A stretch of 64,000 nucleotides of DNA, taken from NCBI RefSeq assembly GCF_003591175.1, contig NZ_QYYG01000001.1:620001-684000 (forward strand), in the 5' to 3' direction. Origin of the DNA: Serratia inhibens (GTDB lineage: Bacteria > Pseudomonadota > Gammaproteobacteria > Enterobacterales > Enterobacteriaceae). Of this stretch, positions 7,271 to 32,072 are shown piece by piece. Position numbers and translations under genes: made by a program. The notes under the pieces are model-generated. The model searched no databases, was not told the DNA's origin, and saw only the letters and a list, made by a program, of their open reading frames with translations. The number at the start of each line of letters is the position of its first letter. Positions within the stretch are counted from its first letter, which is position 1.

Positions 7271-8668
7271 TTACTTCTTCATGCTGCCGACCATCTCTTC
7301 CGGACGCACCCATTGGTCGAATTGCTCTTCGGTCAGGTAACCCAGCTTCAGCGCCGCGGCTTTTAGCGTCAGCCCCTCTTTATGCGCTTTCTTGGCGATT
7401 TCCGCCGCTTTGTCATAGCCAATATGGGTATTCAACGCGGTCACCAGCATCAAAGATTCATTCAGCAACTGGGTAATGCGATCGCGGTTGGGTTCGATGC
7501 CCACCGCGCAGTGCTCATTAAAGCCCTGCATGCCATCGGCCAGCAGCCGGATAGACTGCAGATAGTTGTGGATCACCATCGGACGAAACACGTTCAGCTC
7601 AAAGTTGCCGGAGGCGCCGCCGATATTCACCGCCACGTCATTGCCCATCACCTGCGCGCACAGCATGGTCATCGCCTCGCACTGGGTCGGGTTGACCTTG
7701 CCCGGCATGATGGAGCTGCCCGGTTCGTTTTCCGGAATGGAAATCTCGCCAATGCCGCAGCGCGGGCCGGAGGACAACCAGCGCACATCGTTGGCAATTT
7801 TCATTAATGAAGCCGCCAGCCCTTTCAGCGCGCCGTGGCCGTGCACCAGCGCATCACAGGTTGCCAAGGCTTCAAATTTGTTGGGCGCGGTAACGAACGG
7901 CTGCCGGGTCAGGTCGGCCAGCGCCCTGGCGACGCGCACCGCATATTCAGGATGGGTGTTCAGCCCGGTGCCCACCGCCGTGCCGCCCAACGCCAACTCG
8001 CAAATGTGCGGAATACTGGCTTCAATGTGCTGCAAATTGTGCTGCAGCATCGCCGCCCAACCGGAAATTTCCTGGCCGAGCGTCAGCGGCGTGGCGTCCT
8101 GCAGATGGGTGCGACCGATTTTGACGATATCGCGGAAGGCCTCCGCTTTGTCGCTCAGCGTTTTGTGCAGCACTTTCAGTTCAGGGATCAGATGTTCGCG
8201 CACCGCTATCACCGCCGCCACGTGCATCGCGGTCGGGAACACGTCGTTGGAGCTCTGGCTCTTGTTAACGTCATCGTTTGGGTGTACCCGCCGCTCTTCG
8301 CCGCGTACCCCGCCCAACAGCTCGCTGGCGCGATTGGCCAGCACTTCGTTCATGTTCATGTTGGTTTGGGTGCCGGAACCGGTTTGCCAGATCGACAGCG
8401 GGAACTCGTCCGGGTGCTTGTCCGCCAGCACCTCATCGGCGGCGTTGATAATGGCGTCAGCGCGTTCCGCAGGCAGCAGCCCCAGATCCCGGTTTACCCC
8501 GGCGGCGGCGCGTTTGGTCAGCGCCAGTGCATGAATCAATGCGGTCGGCATCTTTTCGGAGGAAATGCGAAAATGCGCCAGGGAACGCTGAGTTTGCGCG
8601 CCCCATAGCCGATCGGCCGGCACTTCGATGGGCCCCATGGAGTCTTTTTCAATTCGAACGGCTGCCAT
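7271..8668 (-). CDS. fumC: Class II fumarate hydratase FumC
   Basis: 465 aa. Signature [16 protein letters not shown] of the fumarase/aspartase superfamily, with the catalytic Ser in the GSS loop; [14 protein letters not shown] and [14 protein letters not shown] are further active-site segments. It is the iron-independent fumarase of the TCA cycle, induced by SoxRS in E. coli. The ATG at 8668 is preferred over the GTG one codon upstream because GGAG lies 6 nt before it. The tus-fumC-manA order is that of E. coli, without an adjacent fumA. Confidence 0.97.
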
Positions 8669-21569: not shown

Positions 21570-24452
21570 ATGAACACAACGCTGTTCAGTAAAACCCCGA
21601 CGGTTACGGTCCTCGACAACCGTGGCCTGACCGTGCGCGACACCGCATACCATCGTCATCCCAATATGCCGGACGTCACCAATGAGCGCATCACTCGCCA
21701 CCAGTACGATGCCCGCGGATTTCTTACACAGAGCTCCGACCCACGCTTGCATGACGCAGGGCTGGCGAACCTCACATACCTGACTGACCAGGCCGGAAGC
21801 ATTCTGCGTACCGTCAGCGTCGATGCCGGAACAACCGTAACCCTGTATGACGCAGCCGGACGGCCGTTCATGGCGGTCAACAATATCCGTACCGCTGACG
21901 ACGGTACGGAGAACAGAAGTCAGGCCGTGACCCGCGGTTGGCAGTATGAGGAGGCTTCGCTGCCGGGGCGTCTGCTGAGTATCACGGAGCAGGCTACTGA
22001 TGAGGCGGCCCGCATCACGGAGCGCTTTGTCTATGCCGGTAACACTGACAAGGAGAAAGTGCTGAACCTGGCGGGCCAGTGCGTCAGCCACTACGACACA
22101 GCCGGTCTGGTGCAGACCGACAGTCTGGCGCTGACCGGGGTGCCGCTCTCCGTCACCCGTCGTCTGCTGAAGGATTTGGATAGCCCGGATACGGTGGCCG
22201 ACTGGCAGGGCGCGGGGGCTTCCGCGTGGGATAAACTGCTCGCCGATGAGGGATATCACACCCTGACCACGGCGGATGCCACCGGTGCGGTGCTGACCAC
22301 CAAGGATGCAAAAGGTAACCAGCAGCGCATGGCCTATGACGTGGCGGGTCTGCTGTCAGGCAACTGGCTGACGGTGAAGGACGGGACGGAGCAGATTATC
22401 GTTAAGTCCCTGACGTACTCCGCCGCCGGGCAGAAACTGCGCGAGGAGCACGGCAACGGCGTGGTGACTACCTATACCTACGAGCCGCAGACGCAGCGCC
22501 TGACCGGGATGAAAACAGAACGCCCGGCAGGTCATGCCTCCGGGGCAAAAGTACTGCAGGACCTGCGCTATGAGTATGACCCGGTGGGTAATGTGCTGAA
22601 GGTCAGCAACGATGCGGAAGAGACCCGCTTCTGGCGTAACCAGAAAGTGGTGCCGGAGAGCACGTACGCCTACGACAGCCTGTACCAGCTGGTGAGCGCC
22701 ACCGGCCGCGAAATGGCCAACGCAGGTCAACAGAGCAGCAGCTTACCGCCCGCCACTGTCCCCTTTCCCACTGACAGTTCTGCATACACTCGTTATACCC
22801 GGACTTACACTTACGATGCTGCTGGCAACCTTACGCAAATCAGCCACAATGCCCCGGCCACAAGTAACAGCTACACCACGAAAATCACGGTAAGCGACCG
22901 CAGCAACCGGGGTGTGCCGAGCAAACTGACGGAAACTCCGTCAGACGTGGAGGGCCTGTTCACGGCAGGCGGGCAGCAGACGCAGTTGCTGCCGGGACAG
23001 TATCTGACCTGGACGCCGCGTAATGAGCTGCGGATGGTGACGCCGGTGGTGCGTGATAGAAGTGCGGACGACAGCGAAAGCTACCGCTATGATGGTGGAA
23101 ACCAGCGCATCCTCAAGGTCAGCGCGCAGAAAACCGGCAACAGTATGCAGACGCAGCAAGTGGTGTACCTGCCAGGGCTGGAGCTGCGCAGCACAACATC
23201 CGGCGATACGGAAAAGGAAAGCCTGCAGGTTATCACGGTGGGTGAGTCAGGCCGGGCGCAGGTGCGGGTGCTGCACTGGGAGAACGATGTGCCGGAGGGC
23301 ATCGACAACAATCAGTTGCGCTGGAGCTATGACAACCTGACCGGCAGCAGCGGACTGGAGCTGGACGGCGACGGGAACATCATCAGCATGGAGGAATACT
23401 ATCCGTATGGCGGCACGGCGATGTGGGTAGCACGCAGCGCAGTGGAGGCTGATTATAAGACCCTGCGCTACTCTGGCAAGGAACGGGATACGACGGGGCT
23501 GTACTACTATGGTTACCGCTACTATCAGCCATGGGCAGGTAGGTGGCTGAGCGCGGATCCGGCAGGTACGGTGGATGGGTTAAATCTATTTAGAATGGTG
23601 GAAAACAATCCAATAATAAATGTTGATGACTCAGGCTTATTCAGCTTAAACATCCTGAAGAAATTATTCCGAGTAAAGAGAGCAAACGATAGTTACCGAG
23701 GAATGAAGAAAGGTAGTTTATGGAACGGACTAATAAATAGTGAGAAAAATATAAAAAAACAAAGCAACATCAACCTTGAGGCGCTCAGAAAACCAAATTA
23801 CCCCTTAACGAAAGATGCTCATGATTTTATAGAAAGAATGAAGGAGTTAAACTATAATGTCATTCACTTCTCTGGCGCTGATCTTTCTGTACCTGATGGC
23901 GTTCTTTATTCGAAGAAAGAGCTTTATAAAAGAAACATGAAGTTTAGTCAGAGAAACACAACAAAATCAGATATAGAAAAGCTAGGCACTGATGATTTTG
24001 TATTTTTTTCGTTAGGTGTGGGTGATTATTCAGGCAAAGAAATAAGTAGATTTGGAAGATACAAATATCAAACCTCTTTGCCAGAGGCCAGGAAAGACAA
24101 ATATTTCCCACACGCCCATTTGGCTATCAATGATACATTGAATTTTAACGAAAGACAAACAAGCGAGGGACGCCTGACAGCAATATTTAAGATGGCTGAT
24201 GTCAACAGATTGCGTGAAGAGGTCATCGCGGAGAAAGCAGTTGAGACGATATATCATATTGATGACTTTCCGGAAGGGCTGGCCTTAAAAATTGTTAATT
24301 CTACAAAAGAACTTTCATTAAGTTCTCAAAAAAATGTTTATGGTAGCCGAACAGAAGCAGACTTCGATCAGATAATTTCACTATTTCTTAGACCGCAGAT
24401 TTTGGTACCTAAGAAATTCTCGACGAAGAGAATGACTAAATTTCATTCATAA
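21570..24452 (+). CDS. Insecticidal toxin complex C subunit (TccC/SepC type), Rhs core plus variable toxin domain
   Basis: 960 aa. The N-terminal FSKTPTVTVLDNRGLTVRD and the Rhs/YD-repeat core (about residues 1-690) match TccC/SepC proteins, which with TcB form a hollow cocoon enclosing the toxin. R650, D663 and D686 sit exactly where I recall the YenC2 self-cleavage residues (RYYQPWAGRW; DPAGTVDGLNLF; VDDSGL). The C-terminal 270 residues are the hypervariable toxin domain, encoded by clearly AT-richer DNA from about base 23578. I do not recognise the domain; VFFSLGVGDYSG and SRFGRYKYQ hint weakly at an ADP-ribosyltransferase-like fold. No TcA or TcB gene is in the window, so it is an orphan. 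Start supported by AGGAGAATCCC. Confidence 0.9.
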   Translation: MNTTLFSKTPTVTVLDNRGLTVRDTAYHRHPNMPDVTNERITRHQYDARGFLTQSSDPRLHDAGLANLTYLTDQAGSILRTVSVDAGTTVTLYDAAGRPFMAVNNIRTADDGTENRSQAVTRGWQYEEASLPGRLLSITEQATDEAARITERFVYAGNTDKEKVLNLAGQCVSHYDTAGLVQTDSLALTGVPLSVTRRLLKDLDSPDTVADWQGAGASAWDKLLADEGYHTLTTADATGAVLTTKDAKGNQQRMAYDVAGLLSGNWLTVKDGTEQIIVKSLTYSAAGQKLREEHGNGVVTTYTYEPQTQRLTGMKTERPAGHASGAKVLQDLRYEYDPVGNVLKVSNDAEETRFWRNQKVVPESTYAYDSLYQLVSATGREMANAGQQSSSLPPATVPFPTDSSAYTRYTRTYTYDAAGNLTQISHNAPATSNSYTTKITVSDRSNRGVPSKLTETPSDVEGLFTAGGQQTQLLPGQYLTWTPRNELRMVTPVVRDRSADDSESYRYDGGNQRILKVSAQKTGNSMQTQQVVYLPGLELRSTTSGDTEKESLQVITVGESGRAQVRVLHWENDVPEGIDNNQLRWSYDNLTGSSGLELDGDGNIISMEEYYPYGGTAMWVARSAVEADYKTLRYSGKERDTTGLYYYGYRYYQPWAGRWLSADPAGTVDGLNLFRMVENNPIINVDDSGLFSLNILKKLFRVKRANDSYRGMKKGSLWNGLINSEKNIKKQSNINLEALRKPNYPLTKDAHDFIERMKELNYNVIHFSGADLSVPDGVLYSKKELYKRNMKFSQRNTTKSDIEKLGTDDFVFFSLGVGDYSGKEISRFGRYKYQTSLPEARKDKYFPHAHLAINDTLNFNERQTSEGRLTAIFKMADVNRLREEVIAEKAVETIYHIDDFPEGLALKIVNSTKELSLSSQKNVYGSRTEADFDQIISLFLRPQILVPKKFSTKRMTKFHS

Positions 24453-25814: not shown

Positions 25815-26570
25815 ATGCTCACCAGTCAGCGCAAAAAAATCATTCTGGAAAAACTGGCACAGGACGGACAGGTGCTGGCCAAACAGCTTAGCGAAATGTT
25901 CGGGCTGTCCGAAGACACCCTCCGCCGCGATCTGCGTGAGCTGGACAGCGAAGGGCTGCTGCAAAGGGTCCACGGCGGCGCGCTGCCGGTATCCCCCGCC
26001 ATCGGCACCTTTGCCGAAAGAAACGGGCAGGAATCCGCCGCCAAGCGCGCGATAGCCAAAGCCGCAGCGGCGATGATCATTCCAGGGCAAGTGGTGATCA
26101 TCGATGGCGGCACCACCTCCGCCGAGCTGGTGAAACAACTGCCGCCCACGCTGGAGGCGACTATCGTCACTCACAGCCCCAGCGTGGCGGTCGGGTTGGT
26201 TGAACACCCCAAAGTGGAGGTGATCCTGATCGGCGGGCGGTTGTATAAACACTCGATCGTCAGCGTGGGTGCCGCCGCGGTGGAAGCCATGTCGCACATC
26301 CGCGCCGATATTTACTTTATGGGCGTGACGGGCGTGCACCCGACCGCCGGGCTGAGCACCGGCGACCTCGAAGAGGCCTACATCAAACGCGCGCTGGCGG
26401 CACGGGCGGCGGAAACCGTGGTGTTGGCCTCCGCCGCCAAGCTGAACGCCGCCTCCCAGTATGCGATTGGCGACATCACGCTGGCGCAGAGCATTATTGT
26501 CGAACGCGCGACCGACGCCGCGCTGATTGCCCCGCTGGAACAGGCCGGGGTCACGGTGATAAAAGCCTGA
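25815..26570 (+). CDS. DeoR-family transcriptional regulator
   Basis: 251 aa. N-terminal HTH (residues 1-57: RKKIILEKLAQDGQVLAKQLS, then DTLRRDLRELDSEGLLQRVHGGAL) and a DeoR sugar-phosphate-sensing domain (VVIIDGGTTSAELVKQL, GVTGVHPTAGLSTGDLEEA). The start at 25815 places the HTH at the N-terminus; longer frames are non-homologous. It lies in front of, and on the same strand as, the PTS-PFK-aldolase operon, 576 bp away, and is its probable repressor, sensing a phosphorylated intermediate (inference). It is divergent from nudK. Confidence 0.85.
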   Translation: MLTSQRKKIILEKLAQDGQVLAKQLSEMFGLSEDTLRRDLRELDSEGLLQRVHGGALPVSPAIGTFAERNGQESAAKRAIAKAAAAMIIPGQVVIIDGGTTSAELVKQLPPTLEATIVTHSPSVAVGLVEHPKVEVILIGGRLYKHSIVSVGAAAVEAMSHIRADIYFMGVTGVHPTAGLSTGDLEEAYIKRALAARAAETVVLASAAKLNAASQYAIGDITLAQSIIVERATDAALIAPLEQAGVTVIKA

Positions 26571-27146
26571 GCAGCGCGGCCAAATAAATCGCTTAATAAA
26601 TACGCGGTTATTAAATGGCTGCGTTTAATACCGCGACACCCCAAGCTTGGGACGGGTGGGGAACATGCAGGTTAGCCGACCGTTGAGCGTCCATATAAGC
26701 GCGATACGAGCCTCCATGGACGGACTCACGGCGTGTCGGCGCTCTGCATGCTCCTCACCTGTAGCACTATTAGTGTTAGCGCGCAGCTATTTAATCCTGA
26801 CCGCGTATTGAGGGATATTAATTTTACATATTCGTCTCACTGCCACAAAAAATGCGAGAGTAATCACATTTCATTAAACTGATCCCGGCCCAATCCGCTA
26901 TTTTCCCGCCTTATAAAAAATTCCACAGTAATCAACCGGCAACATATTGATTATCAATAAATAGTCGCCCTTTCTCTTTTTCTCATCAAAAACAAAAACG
27001 AGATAAACCTCACAGAAAAACCGCCATCGATAGCGTTGTCAATGTGTTCCAAGGAAATATTTGTGATTGTTTTGTGATATCGCCTGCAAATTTTACCGAT
27101 GCCAAAAATAACAATGGCTGCAACGGAACGGGCTGGGAGCAGGCAT
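26571..27146. other. 576-bp intergenic region between the DeoR gene and the PTS operon
   Basis: The left part holds a ~110-bp imperfect inverted-repeat element (26652-26762). The rest is AT-rich and must carry the operon promoter; no clean -35/-10 pair stood out. No gene was recognised. Confidence 0.5.
26652..26762. repeat. Long imperfect inverted-repeat element, unknown family
   Basis: The outer arms GGTGGGGAACATGCAG (from 26655) and its counterpart CTGCATGCTCCTCACC (to 26759) pair with two mismatches, continuing inward with GCCGAC/GTCGGC. Inner arms GTCCAT/ATGGAC pair around the centre. The result is a ~105-bp hairpin with no coding potential. It may be a MITE-like repeat. Confidence 0.6.
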
Positions 27147-28127
27147 ATGAAGATCGGTGTAGTAATAAGCGGTGGCGATGTCAGCGGCATCAACAACTTT
27201 ATTTTCCAGGTCGCCAGGCTGGCGCAGGCAGATATCGTTCTGTTTAACGGTGGAATTCCGGGATTACTGGCTAATCAATATCATTCCATCGCCAGGCGCG
27301 AGCTGGTCGATTTCTCTATTTCATCGATGCCGATTATCTCTTCAGGTCGTACGGCAAAGAAACTGGTCGCCAGCGAATATGAAACTATCGGCAAGCAACT
27401 TAAAGCGCTGCACATTGACGTGCTTATTATGGCCGGCGGCGACGGCTCGCTGCAGTTTTTAAATACGCTCAGTGAGTTTGGCGTTAACTGTTTTGGCGTT
27501 GGCATGACCATCGACAATGACGTTTTCGGCAGCTGTTACAGCATTGGTTTTTCTACCGCCTGCGAACAGGTGATAAAAGAGGTCTCCAAACTGAGAAATA
27601 CCGGGCGCGCCCTGCCGGGCCGCGTATTTATGATTGAGCTGCTGGGGGGTTACTGCGGGGAACTGACGCTGCAATCGGCGATAAAATCCAATGCGGACTT
27701 TGCCTTGATCCCAGAATGCCAACATCCCTTGAACGCATTGGCGGAAAAAATAACCCACCGGCTGGAGCGGCAAAACAGCGTTATCATTTTATGTTCGGAA
27801 GGATACACCAAAGAGTACTCGCCAGGTTTCCAGGGGGCGATCGACACCATGATTAAACAGCTGGAACCCAAGATTGGCGTGCGTATTCGCAAAACCATCG
27901 TGGGGTACGGCCTGCGCAATGGCGATCCCACTTGCGAAGAGATCTATCAGGGAACACTGATGGCCAGCGAAGTCGTGCGCTGTATTAATTCCGGAATGAA
28001 AAACAAGGCAATCATTATTAATGCCGGCAACCAACCTATTCCGATTGATTTAATCAGCATGCAAAAACGTTTGGTCGACACCGAAGGACACCATTACAAA
28101 CTCGCCAGGCAGTTAAATATAATCTGA
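27147..28127 (+). CDS. 6-phosphofructokinase-family sugar-phosphate kinase
   Basis: 326 aa. MKIGVVISGGDVSGINNFIF is the PfkA start; GGDGS (97-101) and TIDND (121-125, D123 equivalent to catalytic D127 of E. coli PfkA) are conserved, as is an Arg (R159) equivalent to R162. The residue after GGD is Gly, as in ATP-dependent enzymes, and the residue before TIDND is Met rather than the Lys of PPi-dependent ones. LLGGYCGELTL replaces MGRYCGDLTL, losing one Arg. It probably makes a ketose bisphosphate from the PTS product. The start at 27147 follows GGGAGCAGGC. First gene of the operon. Confidence 0.85.
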   Translation: MKIGVVISGGDVSGINNFIFQVARLAQADIVLFNGGIPGLLANQYHSIARRELVDFSISSMPIISSGRTAKKLVASEYETIGKQLKALHIDVLIMAGGDGSLQFLNTLSEFGVNCFGVGMTIDNDVFGSCYSIGFSTACEQVIKEVSKLRNTGRALPGRVFMIELLGGYCGELTLQSAIKSNADFALIPECQHPLNALAEKITHRLERQNSVIILCSEGYTKEYSPGFQGAIDTMIKQLEPKIGVRIRKTIVGYGLRNGDPTCEEIYQGTLMASEVVRCINSGMKNKAIIINAGNQPIPIDLISMQKRLVDTEGHHYKLARQLNII

Positions 28128-28137
28128 GGAGATGTCC

Positions 28138-28452
28138 ATGCTTAAAATATTGTGTGTTTGTGGCTGCGGCCTCGGCTCCAGCTTTGCCATCGAAATGAGC
28201 GCAAAGGCGGTGCTGAAAAAACTGGAGATTGAAGCCGATATTGATCACACCACGATCTCTGAGGCCAGCGCCTTTAAATCAGATATTATTCTTACCCAAA
28301 AAACCTTCGCCGATATTTTAAATGCCGATGCCAGCGAAGAAGAAAAAAAACGGGTCATTGTTCTCCACCGGCTCACCGATAAAGTGGAAATAGAGCAAAA
28401 GATTGTGGCCTTTTTGAAAGAGCGCGACATGAAGGACCCCCATCATGAGTAG
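28138..28452 (+). CDS. PTS EIIB component (lactose/ascorbate-like fold)
   Basis: 104 aa. LKILCVCGCGLGSSFAIEMS holds the phosphorylated Cys in the P-loop-like motif CGCGLGSS of UlaB/GatB-type IIB proteins. The ATG at 28138 has GGAG 6 nt upstream; the ATG at 28132 directly abuts GGAG and is unlikely. It overlaps the IIC gene by 8 bp. It passes phosphate from IIA to the incoming sugar. Confidence 0.88.
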   Translation: MLKILCVCGCGLGSSFAIEMSAKAVLKKLEIEADIDHTTISEASAFKSDIILTQKTFADILNADASEEEKKRVIVLHRLTDKVEIEQKIVAFLKERDMKDPHHE

Positions 28453-29812
28453 TCTGATCGATTTTATCGTCAAAGATCTGCTGGGCCAGGCGTCGATCCT
28501 GATTGCCTTTATCGCCATGCTGGGGTTGTTGCTGCAGAAAAAATCCACCGGCAAGGTCGCCGAAGGCACGTTCAAAACGCTGTTGGGCTTTCTGATCATG
28601 ATGGCCGGCATCAACATCATCGTCGGTGCCCTGACCTACCTGAACAGTATCTTCACCCACGGCTTCGGCATGACCGGTTATATCACCGACGTCGCCGCCA
28701 TTGCCGGCCTGGCCAACCGCGAGCTGGGTTCGGAAGTGGCGATGACCCTGCTGGTGATTTTCGCCGTGAATATCATCATCGCCCGCATCACTCCGTTCAA
28801 ATACATTTTCCTGACCGGACAGGCGTTGTTGTGGATGGCCACCATCGGTGCGGTGATCGGCTATAAAGCCGGGTTGACCGGGATGCCGCTGATTTTGACC
28901 GGCGGGATCTTTGGCGGCGTGATGGCGGTGTTGATGCCGGCGCTGGCGCAGCCGGTAGTGCGCAAAATCACCGGCTCGGACGAGGTGGCGCTGGGGCACT
29001 TCTGCACCATCGGTTATCTGGTGCAGGCGGCGGTCGCCAAGGTGGTCGGCAAAGGCTCGCGTTCCACCGAGGATCTGGAGCTGCCCGACAACTTCAAGTT
29101 TCTGCAAGACACCTATCTGTCGATGGCGGTGGTGATGATCCCGATGTACCTGATCCCTGCGCTGGCGGCCGGGCCACAGTTCATCGCCCAATACGCCGGC
29201 GGGATGAACTACCTGATGTACTCCTTTATGCAGGCCATTCAGTTCGTCGCCGGCGTGTTTATCCTCTACAGCGGCGTGCGTCTGTTGCTGAATGAGCTGG
29301 TGCCGGCGTTTCGCGGCATTGCCATGCGCATCGTGCCGGATGCCCGCCCGGCGCTGGATTGCCCGGTGTTGTTCCCCTATGCGCCCAATGCGGTGATTGT
29401 CGGCTTCCTGGCCACGACCCTGGGTTCGATCATCGGCATGATCGTTTTCCCGATGTTCGGTCTGGCGATGATCCTGCCCGGCCTGCTCACCAACTTCTTC
29501 GCCGGCGGCACCGCGGGCATTTTCGGTAACGCCCTTGGCGGGCGGCGCGGCGCGATGATCGGGGGCGTGGTTCACGGTCTGTTCATCACCTTCCTGCCGG
29601 CCATTCTGGTGCCGATGCTGGAAAGTTACGGTTTTGTCGGCGTGACCTTCAGCGATTCCGACGTCATCAGCAGCGGTCTGGTGATGGGGCATGCCTTCCA
29701 GGGCAACTGGCTGTTCATCGCCCTGTTCATTGTCTTCGTCACGCTGATTGCGTGGTTCGTTAACGGTAAGTCAACCAAACACCATGAGGGAAAAGTCCAT
29801 GAAACTCTATAA
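28445..29812 (+). CDS. PTS EIIC transporter, UlaA (ascorbate/SgaT) family
   Basis: 455 aa, about eleven membrane segments. IKDLLGQASIL-like N-terminus (DFIVKDLLGQASILIAFI), FILTGQA-like IFLTGQALLWM and FFAGGTAGIFGNALGGRRGA are UlaA-family features. It moves and, with IIB, phosphorylates the substrate. The family member in E. coli takes L-ascorbate, but none of the ula catabolic enzymes is present here; a PFK and an aldolase are, so a different substrate is likely. Overlaps the IIB and aldolase genes. Confidence 0.88.
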   Translation: MSSLIDFIVKDLLGQASILIAFIAMLGLLLQKKSTGKVAEGTFKTLLGFLIMMAGINIIVGALTYLNSIFTHGFGMTGYITDVAAIAGLANRELGSEVAMTLLVIFAVNIIIARITPFKYIFLTGQALLWMATIGAVIGYKAGLTGMPLILTGGIFGGVMAVLMPALAQPVVRKITGSDEVALGHFCTIGYLVQAAVAKVVGKGSRSTEDLELPDNFKFLQDTYLSMAVVMIPMYLIPALAAGPQFIAQYAGGMNYLMYSFMQAIQFVAGVFILYSGVRLLLNELVPAFRGIAMRIVPDARPALDCPVLFPYAPNAVIVGFLATTLGSIIGMIVFPMFGLAMILPGLLTNFFAGGTAGIFGNALGGRRGAMIGGVVHGLFITFLPAILVPMLESYGFVGVTFSDSDVISSGLVMGHAFQGNWLFIALFIVFVTLIAWFVNGKSTKHHEGKVHETL

Positions 29813-30641
29813 TTTCAACGAGCTGTTGTCCGTTGCCAAGGCCCGCGACTTCAAGGCGATAGGCTCATTCAATCTTCATTGCCTGGAGATGCTGCCGGCC
29901 TTTTTCAGGGCGGCCAAGGCCACCCACAGCCCGCTGATGATCCAGATTTCCACCGGTACCGCCGAATATCTGGGCTACCGGCTGCTGGTTGATTCGGTGC
30001 GCTCGCTGGCGGCAAGCGAAGATGTGCCCACCTGTCTGCATCTGGATCACTGCTCGGACATCGCCGCCATCGAGACGGCGATTGATGCCGGTTTCAGTTC
30101 GGTGATGTATGACGGTTCGCACCTTGATATGGACGAGAATATCGCCAATACCCGCAAGGTGATCGACATTGCCCGCCAGCGTAACGTCTCGGTGGAGGCT
30201 GAACTGGGCGCCATCGGCGGTTCGGAGGACGGCAAGGCGGTTGCGGAAGAGGACATCTGTTTTACTACCGTAGAAGACGCCAAGCGCTTTGTAGACGAAA
30301 CCGGGGTCGATATGCTGGCCGTGTCGGTCGGCACCGTCCACGGGCTGTACACCGGTAAGGCGCATATCCAGCACCAGCGCCTGGCGGAAATCACCGAGGC
30401 CACCCATACCCCGCTGGTATTGCACGGCGGCACCGGGGTCAGCGATGAAGACATGCGGCGCGCGGTGGCCGGCGGCATTGAAAAGGTCAACGTGGGCACC
30501 GAGATGAACGTGCAATGGGTTGGGCGCTGCAAGCAGACATTTGAAAAAGGCAAAGTGAACGACAGCGTGCGGAAATTCCTGATCCCGGCCAATAATGCCG
30601 TCACCGAAGTATTAACGGAAAAGATCGGTCTGTTTAAATAA
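29799..30641 (+). CDS. Class II ketose-bisphosphate aldolase (GatY/KbaY/FbaA-like)
   Basis: 280 aa. Zinc ligands and catalytic residues fit the class II aldolase fold: HLDHCSD (catalytic Asp and zinc His), AELGAIGGSEDG, VSVGTVHGLYTGK (second His), VLHGGTGVSDE (third His). Most like tagatose-bisphosphate aldolase GatY. It would split a ketose bisphosphate to dihydroxyacetone-P and an aldehyde phosphate. The ATG at 29799 follows GAGGGAAAAG and overlaps the IIC gene by 14 bp. Confidence 0.88.
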   Translation: MKLYNFNELLSVAKARDFKAIGSFNLHCLEMLPAFFRAAKATHSPLMIQISTGTAEYLGYRLLVDSVRSLAASEDVPTCLHLDHCSDIAAIETAIDAGFSSVMYDGSHLDMDENIANTRKVIDIARQRNVSVEAELGAIGGSEDGKAVAEEDICFTTVEDAKRFVDETGVDMLAVSVGTVHGLYTGKAHIQHQRLAEITEATHTPLVLHGGTGVSDEDMRRAVAGGIEKVNVGTEMNVQWVGRCKQTFEKGKVNDSVRKFLIPANNAVTEVLTEKIGLFK

Positions 30642-30663
30642 CGGTTGTCATTAGTTCTTAATA

Positions 30664-30767
30664 TATACCCTGTGCATTTCAAGTCGCGGTTAAGCGGTTA
30701 ACTATTAGTCCCGGATCCTCAGTTATTGCAGGGTGCTGCATGCTGCGGCGTGAAAGGCGCAGGTATA
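30664..30767. repeat. Degenerate ERIC-like element inside the PTS operon
   Basis: Begins TATACCC and GCATTTCAAGTCGCGG and ends with GCTGCGGCGTGAAAGG...AGGTATA, matching the outer arms of ERIC; the core (the TTACATAAGTAAG segment) is absent. It lies between the aldolase and the small unknown gene. Confidence 0.55.
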
Positions 30768-30780
30768 GACTGGAGAATAT

Positions 30781-31050
30781 ATGTTTAATTTTATGAAACG
30801 TCAGCGGGAAAAAGAAACTTTGCCCGCCACGAATTACGATGATGAAGCCAATGAAATTGCAGCCGAAATTAACACACTGGAACGGCAGTTGGCAGCAACG
30901 CCGGCGGACGGCGAAATCCATAAGGCATTAATGCTGGCCTATAATCGGGCAGTAAAGATTTATGCCAAAAGCCGGCACCATCGCCAACATATCGATACCG
31001 TTTTTATCAAGATGGACGAGCTGCGCAATATTATCAGGAAAAATCTCTGA
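30781..31050 (+). CDS. Small charged protein of unknown function in the PTS operon
   Basis: 89 aa, mostly helical and rich in Glu, Lys and Arg; MKRQREKETLPATNYDDEAN, then AEINTLERQLAATPADGEIHKAL. Neither a signal peptide nor a membrane segment is seen. GGAG 6 nt before the ATG supports translation. Its position between aldolase and IIA, on the same strand and 9 bp before the IIA gene, suggests co-expression. No family recognised; it may be a regulatory or scaffolding subunit (weak inference). Confidence 0.7.
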   Translation: MFNFMKRQREKETLPATNYDDEANEIAAEINTLERQLAATPADGEIHKALMLAYNRAVKIYAKSRHHRQHIDTVFIKMDELRNIIRKNL

Positions 31051-31059
31051 GGGATCATG

Positions 31060-31497
31060 ATGACAATTAAACAACTGCTGATTGAGGCCGGCGCCATACA
31101 GGTCGGCATCAAGGAAACGGACTGGCAAAAGGTCATTACGCTGGCGGCGCAGCCCTTGGTGGATAACGGCTATATTCACGCCTCTTATTATCAGGCGGTG
31201 ATCAGCAATACGCTGGCCCACGGCGCTTATTACGTGTTTGACGAAGGCATCGCCATCCCCCACGCACGGCCGGAGTGCGGGGTCATTAAAAACTGCTTCA
31301 GCATGGTGTTGCTGGAGGAGCCCATCGCCTTTCGCGACAGCGAAAAGGCCGATATCGTCATTCTGTTCGGCGCCACCGACAGTAACCGGCATATTGAAGA
31401 AGGCATTCGCGCCATTGTCGATTTGCTGGACAATAAAGAGCGGCTCGACAAGCTCCGCGCGGCGAAAATATGGCAAGAGGTGGTGGACATATTATGA
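31060..31497 (+). CDS. PTS EIIA component (fructose/mannitol/UlaC type)
   Basis: 145 aa. The phosphorylated His is in GIAIPHARPECGV, the IIA-Ntr/UlaC-type signature; SMVLLEEPIAFRDSEKADIVILFG follows. A second ATG lies one codon upstream (31057); either may start. Last PTS subunit of the operon; overlaps the next kinase gene by 4 bp (ATGA). It takes phosphate from HPr. Confidence 0.88.
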   Translation: MTIKQLLIEAGAIQVGIKETDWQKVITLAAQPLVDNGYIHASYYQAVISNTLAHGAYYVFDEGIAIPHARPECGVIKNCFSMVLLEEPIAFRDSEKADIVILFGATDSNRHIEEGIRAIVDLLDNKERLDKLRAAKIWQEVVDIL

Positions 31498-32072
31498 CTC
31501 TGGCAAGCGGAAAAACCGTCATTCTGGTCAATGGCGTTCCTGCCTCCGGCAAAAGCACCGTCGCGCAGGCTTTGGCGCAGCATTTCGGCCTGCCTTATCT
31601 GGCCATCGACGGTATCAAGGAGCCTTTTATGTCGCGGCTGGACAACGTGGATCGGGGGCTGAACCGGCGGCTTGGCTGCGCCGCTTATGAAGCCATTTGG
31701 TCAATCGTGGCGCAGGCCCCCGACTGCTGCACTTACGTTATCGACGCCTGGTTCGGCTTTCAGCCCAGAGAGCAGTTGCGCCATTACCTGCGCGAAGCCG
31801 GGGTGACGCAACCTCTGGAAGTGTGGAACCAGATTTCCGGCGAGCTGGCGGCAGAGCGCTATGCTTCGCGCATCGGGCAACGGCCCAAAGGCCACCCCGG
31901 TACAGAATATTTGCCTGAATTGCGGGCGCTGGCCGAACGCGCCGCCCCGATGGCCATCGGCCCGGTGATCCGGGTTGAGCAAGCTCAGCCGCTGGAGATC
32001 GGCCGGATTGTCGACTCGCTGGCGGAGTACGGCATCGGTGGCGATAACGTCGGCAAGCGGATGGCGGGTTGA
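31494..32072 (+). CDS. P-loop kinase-like protein of the PTS operon
   Basis: 192 aa. Walker A GVPASGKSTVAQAL at the N-terminus and a Rossmann-like core, like small gluconate/shikimate-type kinases or zeta-toxin-like kinases. The substrate is unknown. Its start overlaps the EIIA stop by 4 bp, so it is translationally coupled and likely part of the same pathway. It ends the cluster. Confidence 0.75.
   Translation: MTLASGKTVILVNGVPASGKSTVAQALAQHFGLPYLAIDGIKEPFMSRLDNVDRGLNRRLGCAAYEAIWSIVAQAPDCCTYVIDAWFGFQPREQLRHYLREAGVTQPLEVWNQISGELAAERYASRIGQRPKGHPGTEYLPELRALAERAAPMAIGPVIRVEQAQPLEIGRIVDSLAEYGIGGDNVGKRMAG

Follow-up and report, generated by a model that had tools for sequence, protein, structure and literature searches.

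The operon and its distribution

The DNA analysed here (the window) is a 64,000-nt stretch of Serratia inhibens GCF_003591175.1 (contig NZ_QYYG01000001.1, positions 620,001-684,000 of the forward strand). At 27147-32072 it harbors seven genes, all on the + strand, encoding a kinase of the PfkA (phosphofructokinase, PFK) family, the IIB, IIC and IIA subunits of a phosphotransferase system (PTS), a class II ketose-bisphosphate aldolase, a predicted P-loop kinase and an 89-residue protein, X89 (Table 1). These genes probably form an operon that is under catabolite control and serves a single specific sugar. This sugar, most likely a non-fructose ketose, would be imported by the PTS, phosphorylated a second time and split by aldol cleavage. 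The gene set, its conservation, the kept catalytic residues, an altered IIC pocket, interchangeable aldolases and CRP-like sites are read from the sequence; from them we infer the class of substrate, the positions of the phosphates, the order of the steps and control by CRP. The operon represents PTS-kinase-aldolase catabolism in a new, conserved form.

Every gene reported in a first-pass annotation of this DNA was recovered at the same place and strand, and its reading of the seven as one operon is borne out by computation. The overlaps it gave are exact on recount, stop codons included: 8 bp between IIB and IIC (28445-28452), 14 bp between IIC and the aldolase (29799-29812) and 4 bp between IIA and the P-loop gene (31494-31497). 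The kinase start was moved from 27099 to 27147 by alignment of orthologues. Pfam cut-offs are clearly passed for DeoR, PFK, PTS_IIB, EIIC-GAT, F_bP_aldolase and PTS_EIIA_2. The operon contains no isomerase, epimerase or dehydrogenase gene, and the Rfam search gave no match.

Table 1. Coordinates of the operon genes and upstream features in the window
Feature	Position	Strand	Remarks
DeoR-family regulator	25815..26570	+	Pfam HTH_DeoR/DeoRC; neighbour, probably outside the system
CRP-like site 1, TGCGAGAGTAATCACA	26853..26868	.	centre -286 from kinase start; 9/10 consensus bases in window
CRP-like site 2, CGAGATAAACCTCACA	26999..27014	.	centre -140; 8/10 consensus bases in window
CRP-like site 3, TGTGATATCGCCTGCA	27073..27088	.	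centre -66; 7/10 consensus bases in window
PfkA-family kinase, 326 aa	27147..28127	+	PF00365, E 1.7e-58
PTS IIB	28132..28452	+	PF02302
PTS IIC, UlaA type	28445..29812	+	PF03611, E 5.9e-121, 404.7 bits vs cut-off 24.2
Class II ketose-bisphosphate aldolase	29799..30641	+	PF01116, E 6.9e-90, 301.8 bits
X89, 89-aa protein	30781..31050	+	no family match; relative of small TPR-like proteins
PTS IIA	31057..31497	+	PF00359 (PTS_EIIA_2), E 3.6e-27
P-loop small-molecule kinase (predicted)	31494..32072	+	P-loop kinase fold, Walker A and lid

Named genomes were searched with an alignment of 11 kinases; of the 129 stretches that matched, 92 code for a relative, and the 80 best were retained as loci. The gene order (in full, PFK-IIB-IIC-aldolase-X89-IIA-P-loop) is identical across all 80, which is far beyond chance. 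A search for the same seven-gene order elsewhere, proposed with the first-pass annotation, thus finds the set intact in 65/80 loci. In 11 more, the class II aldolase is absent and a class I aldolase follows the P-loop gene instead, the rest of the set being the same, so that with either aldolase the operon is intact in 76. Four loci are incomplete: IIC is split in L109 and L116, PFK and aldolase have frame breaks in L110, and L115 is cut at a contig end. All six of PFK, IIB, IIC, X89, IIA and the P-loop gene are found in 77 loci (76 at full length, the IIC of L109 being split).

Carriers are species of Serratia, Klebsiella, Raoultella, Buttiauxella, Cedecea, Pantoea, Enterobacter, Pectobacterium, Vibrio and others; Serratia plymuthica NBRC 102599 (L047) is one of them. 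The kinase (E < 1e-80) and X89 (E < 1e-30) co-occur in an identical 37 of 295 family genomes, a count that excludes 11 weak extra X89 matches (E 2e-5 to 1e-3, within frames of ~1500 codons); among 369 genomes sampled from the class, X89 is present in one, the window's own. Neighboring genes across the 80 loci are of 27 kinds upstream and 32 kinds downstream, which suggests that the operon travels as a unit. Against 5426 E. coli genomes, the DNA from PFK to aldolase matches over no more than 78 bases, in 126 of them; in the 20 listed, the match is annotated as ascorbate IIC. Searches of the open-access literature gave no published description of the operon, in keeping with the first-pass remark that the combination was not a recognised one. 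The Sodalis praecaptivus kinase is carried by a plasmid record of 449,897 bases (H22, NZ_CP006570.1, 196403-197335), and contig G033:C2 holds X89. On the kinase tree, the Enterobacter ludwigii and Enterobacter cancerogenus kinases group with Pantoea and that of Klebsiella sp. BIGb0407 with Erwinia (L100, L080, L122), a sign of either intergeneric transfer or mislabelled records.

Transporter, aldolases and kinases

The PTS subunits resemble the E. coli ascorbate proteins: IIC is 29% identical to UlaA, IIB 28% to UlaB and IIA 37% to UlaC (39% to SgcA over fewer residues). The UlaB cysteine aligns with an invariant cysteine of the operon IIBs, and two histidines invariant among the operon IIAs are present in UlaC too. 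The window IIC scores above the NCBIfam model NF009551 'PTS sugar transporter subunit IIC' (PRK12997.1-3; 822 vs 657 bits), which names no substrate and matched 0/14 control genomes, and it passes two further, broader IIC models. The excerpt available of a UlaA study gives 11 residues as contacting ascorbate: T86, Y87, H135, I136, Q139, H194, Q195, D314, I358, F362 and M410 (PMC6048161). Only His194, Asp314 and Phe362 of these listed contacts are kept in 78/78 operon IICs, and each of the other eight positions carries the same replacement residue in all 78 (IICs of more than 400 residues from 77 loci and the window; L109, L115 and L116, with split or cut IICs, were omitted). As a control, a ula-type IIC located in L100 retains 11/11 of them. 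A pocket that is invariant and unlike UlaA implies strong constraint, apparently for one conserved non-ascorbate substrate. The first-pass annotation had described a UlaA-type IIC outside an ascorbate system, with UlaG and UlaD/E/F missing; this holds, since the pocket is altered at eight of the 11 listed contacts and the seven operon genes belong to other families. Its proposal of import by the PTS is likewise supported. A second IIC-IIB-IIA set, with an IIC 46% identical, lies near the full operon in one genome of family f10 (L193, 11910-13924).

The window aldolase keeps the HxDH, VHG and LHGG motifs in the alignment, including those with the zinc-ligand histidines, and is 36% identical to KbaY and 34% to GatY. 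In NCBIfam it passes TIGR00167 only (263.6 vs cut-off 215.6) and does not reach the GatY/KbaY cut-offs (259 vs 383 for NF009374, 235 vs 444 for TIGR01858). The replacement class I aldolase is LacD/YihT-like (24% identical to YihT; the L189 relative is DeoC/LacD in Pfam), and its nearest NCBIfam model, PRK12858 'tagatose 1,6-diphosphate aldolase', is missed at 148 vs 184. Both aldolases together occur in 0/80 loci. The exchange maps to a single branch of the kinase tree (support 100/100); on this tree the branch of E. coli PfkA is very long and two long Vibrio branches are grouped together, and the split between class II and class I aldolases is mainly what was used. Because the two classes are unrelated and replace each other, they would share a reaction type, in which a ketose phosphate or bisphosphate is split by aldol cleavage into dihydroxyacetone phosphate and an aldehyde. 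The swap, though a single event, is the best support for cleavage chemistry, and it strengthens the aldolase step of the first-pass annotation. Directly 3' of the class I aldolase, three loci carry a HAD phosphatase gene (L113 5881-6561, L120 5726-6478, L122 14045-14725); the L120 protein shows a weak likeness, below cut-off, to 6-phosphogluconate phosphatase.

The operon kinase is 27% identical to E. coli PfkA and 29% to the PfkA of its own genome, and carries the PFK domain, the GGDGS and TIDND motifs and the phosphate-binding arginines. Alignment of eight operon kinases shows that Arg72, Asp103, Gly104, Thr125, Asp127, Asp129, Arg162, Glu222, Arg243 and Arg252 are kept, and that Phe73, Arg77, Arg82, Gly124 (Met), Met169 (Leu), Arg171 (Gly/Ala) and His249 (Tyr/Phe) are changed. 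In the PfkA numbering, we take Asp127 and Asp129 to be catalytic, Arg162, Arg243 and Arg252 to bind phosphate and His249 to lie on the sugar side. The catalytic base and the clamp on the far phosphate would then be kept and the contacts to the sugar and to the nucleotide altered, the pattern expected of an active kinase whose sugar phosphate is related but not the same. The protein misses the 6-phosphofructokinase cut-offs of NCBIfam (160 vs 371 bits for TIGR02482, 200 vs 253 for NF002872), and the first-pass description as a divergent PFK-family kinase stands, its catalytic residues being kept.

The P-loop protein matches several P-loop families weakly, with CPT alone just passing (24.2 bits vs cut-off 22); its active-site residues are conserved across 40 members. 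A similar protein, PDB 2rhm from Chloroflexus aurantiacus, is named only 'putative kinase'. X89 has no match in NCBIfam (E up to 0.001) or Pfam (E up to 0.01), where nothing beyond scattered weak matches appears, and shares a C-terminal motif with the TPR-like proteins of related clusters. At a guess, the P-loop kinase may phosphorylate an unphosphorylated sugar or aldehyde, and X89 may be an adaptor for an operon enzyme.

The related clusters come from a search with the IIC model in 394 genomes of the order, in which 25 scored above cut-off and nine neighborhoods were examined. Three (L191, L192, L193) have the complete PFK layout. L189 and L190 have no PFK and carry IIC (69% identical), IIB, IIA, the P-loop protein (55-57%), a class I aldolase (62-63%) and a small protein of 101-103 aa that matches TPR weakly; they are adjoined by a divergent regulator containing a Sugar-bind domain. 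The remaining four (L194-L197), from another family, also have no PFK. Their genes encode, in turn, a protein of ~700 aa in which PRD and IIA domains are combined, IIB, IIC (~60%), a small protein (~135 aa) matching TPR weakly, a class II aldolase (45-47%) and a P-loop kinase (~205 aa) that differs from that of the window, at 18-22% identity; domain searches covered L189 and L195 as examples of the PFK-less clusters. The six genomes behind these clusters have one full-length PFK gene each, at housekeeping score (G882 and G1046 also have weak partial matches). The counts cover 11 genomes in all: G808 and G954 have one full-length gene (G808 also a weak partial match), and G764, G839 and G860 have two. 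Because six relatives keep PTS, aldolase, P-loop kinase and a small TPR-like protein without PFK, these four appear to be the constant core; PFK is an addition or was lost, and is not a constant part. At such low identity, a common function of the P-loop kinases of the window and of L194-L197 is no more than plausible.

The upstream region

The first-pass annotation had placed the operon behind a DeoR regulator, which is encoded 576 bases upstream; the distribution of this gene does not support it as the operon's regulator. DeoR is found in 24/30 Serratia genomes and the operon kinase in 11/30: 10 have both, 14 have DeoR without the kinase and one has the kinase without a DeoR match. Only six of the 80 loci, all Serratia, have a close DeoR at full length; further traces are a 33-residue piece in L049 and a 27%-identical homologue in L100. 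The gene thus occurs independently of the operon (14 of the 24 DeoR-bearing Serratia genomes have no kinase) and was rejected as its regulator; it is a resident Serratia gene, adjacent to the system and not a constant part of it. In Serratia quinivorans L049, DeoR is reduced to the 33-residue match (8515-8613) beside an intact operon, which fits its being dispensable. The region is directly preceded by an Rhs/YD-repeat-like protein of 960 aa whose C-terminal end is distinct (21570-24452); it is named from its sequence pattern.

Conserved CRP-like operators stand at a fixed distance from the kinase gene. The region upstream of the kinase was scanned in 81 sequences (80 loci and the window), scoring 10 consensus bases. 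Sites with at least 8/10 number 234, whereas 30 shuffles average 11.9 and a coding control has 12. Site 1 reaches at least 8/10 at the same place in 80/81 sequences and site 2 in 78/81; site 3 has at least 7/10 in 81/81 and at least 8/10 in 62/81. Sites 2 and 3 are spaced by exactly 74 bp, about seven helical turns, in 78/81 (mean 0.05 in 20 shuffles), and this spacing recurs in three further loci from two other families. Sites 1 and 3 depart from the consensus in a conserved manner. The first half of site 1 is often TGCG rather than TGTG, a variant that presumably resembles Sxy-dependent CRP-S sites. Three PFK-less clusters were scanned upstream of their first gene, where L189 has two sites of 8/10. 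A search of the operon leader for inverted repeats found none. Together, the three conserved sites suggest that the operon may be under CRP control.

Proposed pathway, alternatives and known systems

In the proposed pathway, cyclic AMP-CRP would turn the operon on via the three sites, and the IIA-IIB-IIC relay would import the sugar and phosphorylate it, probably at the far primary hydroxyl, to give a ketose phosphate. A kinase, for which the PfkA-family enzyme is the best candidate here, would add a second phosphate at C1; in relatives without PFK this step would have to fall to the P-loop kinase or the housekeeping PfkA. The aldolase would split the bisphosphate into dihydroxyacetone phosphate and a phosphorylated aldehyde, both entering glycolysis. 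Since genes for an isomerase, an epimerase or a dehydrogenase are absent from the operon, what is imported ought to be a ketose from the start, unless general enzymes process it. This logic of import, phosphorylation and cleavage is likely. Several observations weigh against it in part. PFK is absent from L189, L190 and L194-L197, which keep aldolase and P-loop kinase, so it may not be the second-phosphate enzyme; the first-pass assignment of that step to PFK is therefore doubtful, although PFK is the best candidate in this operon. The PTS and two kinases together provide one phosphorylation more than the scheme explains, and the phosphoryl donor is uncertain because position 124 is Met and the Phe73, Arg77 and Arg82 positions differ from PfkA. 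No CRP-like site at 8/10 stands before the first gene of L196 or L197, and a simple promoter scan gave no sigma-70 consensus match on the operon strand. Finally, the loci share descent, so that locus counts are not counts of independent events.

The most serious competitor, somewhat unlikely on balance, holds that the P-loop kinase is the constant kinase of the pathway and that PFK was recruited later in one lineage. The aldolase would then yield dihydroxyacetone phosphate and an unphosphorylated aldehyde that the P-loop kinase phosphorylates, or this kinase would make the bisphosphate first. Six PFK-less clusters argue for this by retaining a P-loop kinase alongside an aldolase, a small TPR-like protein and an IIC of the same family, as do the single full-length PFK gene, at housekeeping score, in their genomes and the conserved active site of 40 P-loop members. 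PFK is, however, first in the operon and shares its set of 37 family genomes with X89, and the low identity of the L194-L197 enzymes means that their role may differ. A spare, CRP-driven upper glycolysis, taking ordinary fructose to fructose 6-phosphate and bisphosphate by another route, is improbable. It would fit the CRP-like sites, the lack of a constant dedicated regulator and the kept phosphate-binding arginines of PFK, but a housekeeping PFK (374 bits) and two further class II aldolases are already encoded in the genome, and a kinase of 27% identity with a changed sugar-side histidine is not expected for the same substrate.

A D-tagatose system, in which the PTS delivers tagatose 6-phosphate to a kinase and a tagatose-bisphosphate aldolase, is very improbable, although both aldolase types resemble tagatose-bisphosphate aldolases among others (under equivalog cut-offs) and the missing isomerase fits a ketose imported directly. 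Four operon-carrying species are reported as D-tagatose negative in the portions available of two sources: the type strains of Raoultella terrigena (locus L058), R. planticola (L083) and R. ornithinolytica (L082), and Cedecea sulfonylureivorans (L063) (PMC11096500, PMC12671600). For Dryocola boscaweniae, the latter source has 'na' in its table and calls the trait absent in the accessible text, and the species was left uncounted (PMC12671600). These data are acid-production strip tests of wild-type species, as those portions describe them, in which a silent operon is possible; D-tagatose is disfavoured accordingly. The sequenced Raoultella strains are, we assume, the strains tested. The tagatose- or galactitol-like logic of the first-pass annotation therefore survives as a scheme of import, kinase and aldolase cleavage, and not as a pointer to D-tagatose itself. 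Ascorbate, or an ascorbate-like compound, was rejected as the substrate and is hardly credible. The identity of IIC and IIA to the E. coli Ula proteins and one passed IIC model that NCBI calls 'PTS ascorbate transporter subunit IIC' speak for it; against it stand the changes at eight of the 11 listed contacts in 78/78 operon IICs, compared with none in the ula-type IIC of L100, and an operon without a lactonase, decarboxylase or epimerase gene. With regard to other ketoses, the use of D-psicose by K. pneumoniae is assigned, in the excerpt available, to a separate permease/ribokinase/epimerase locus (PMC6020474), which was not counted against psicose. Heptuloses and hamamelose were considered as well; a search of the open-access literature on the use of sedoheptulose turned up nothing relevant.

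The preferred reading, PTS import of a ketose other than fructose followed by phosphorylation and cleavage, can be tentatively extended. The operon may belong to a hitherto undescribed family of sugar-degrading PTS modules that combine a UlaA-type transporter of one conserved non-ascorbate specificity with a P-loop kinase, a TPR-like adaptor and a class I or II aldolase, with a private PfkA paralogue in some lineages. Such modules might degrade a natural sugar without known bacterial pathway (e.g., a heptulose or a branched or rare ketohexose), and the P-loop enzyme might represent a novel type of kinase for sugars or aldehydes. The names 'ascorbate' transport and 'phosphofructokinase' suggested by sequence probably mislead, and the invariant transporter pocket suggests that carriers share one sugar. 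Its identification would assign seven genes together, show the jobs of the P-loop protein and X89, and probably reveal a new kinase acting on a sugar or an aldehyde. A constant core with an exchangeable aldolase and an optional PFK is a clear case of a pathway rebuilt from unrelated enzymes.

Three known systems share parts with the operon. The E. coli L-ascorbate ula operon (ulaABCDEF/ulaG) belongs to the same ascorbate/galactitol PTS superfamily, as the subunit identities given above reflect; unlike it, the window operon has neither UlaG/D/E/F nor the ascorbate pocket and has an extra kinase, aldolase, P-loop protein and X89. In the galactitol/tagatose 6-phosphate route (gatYZABCD; kbaYZ), PTS import is followed by aldolase cleavage of a ketose bisphosphate. 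The GatY/KbaY-type class II aldolase is shared at 34-36% identity, whereas the window operon has no dehydrogenase and no GatZ/KbaZ partner, and possesses its own PfkA-type kinase and a UlaA-type IIC. The replacement aldolase is nearest to PRK12858, below cut-off, and to YihT (24%), and recalls the LacD class I aldolases and the sulfoquinovose yih pathway; in contrast to the latter, the operon has no sulfo-sugar enzymes, its kinase is of another family and uptake would be by a PTS.

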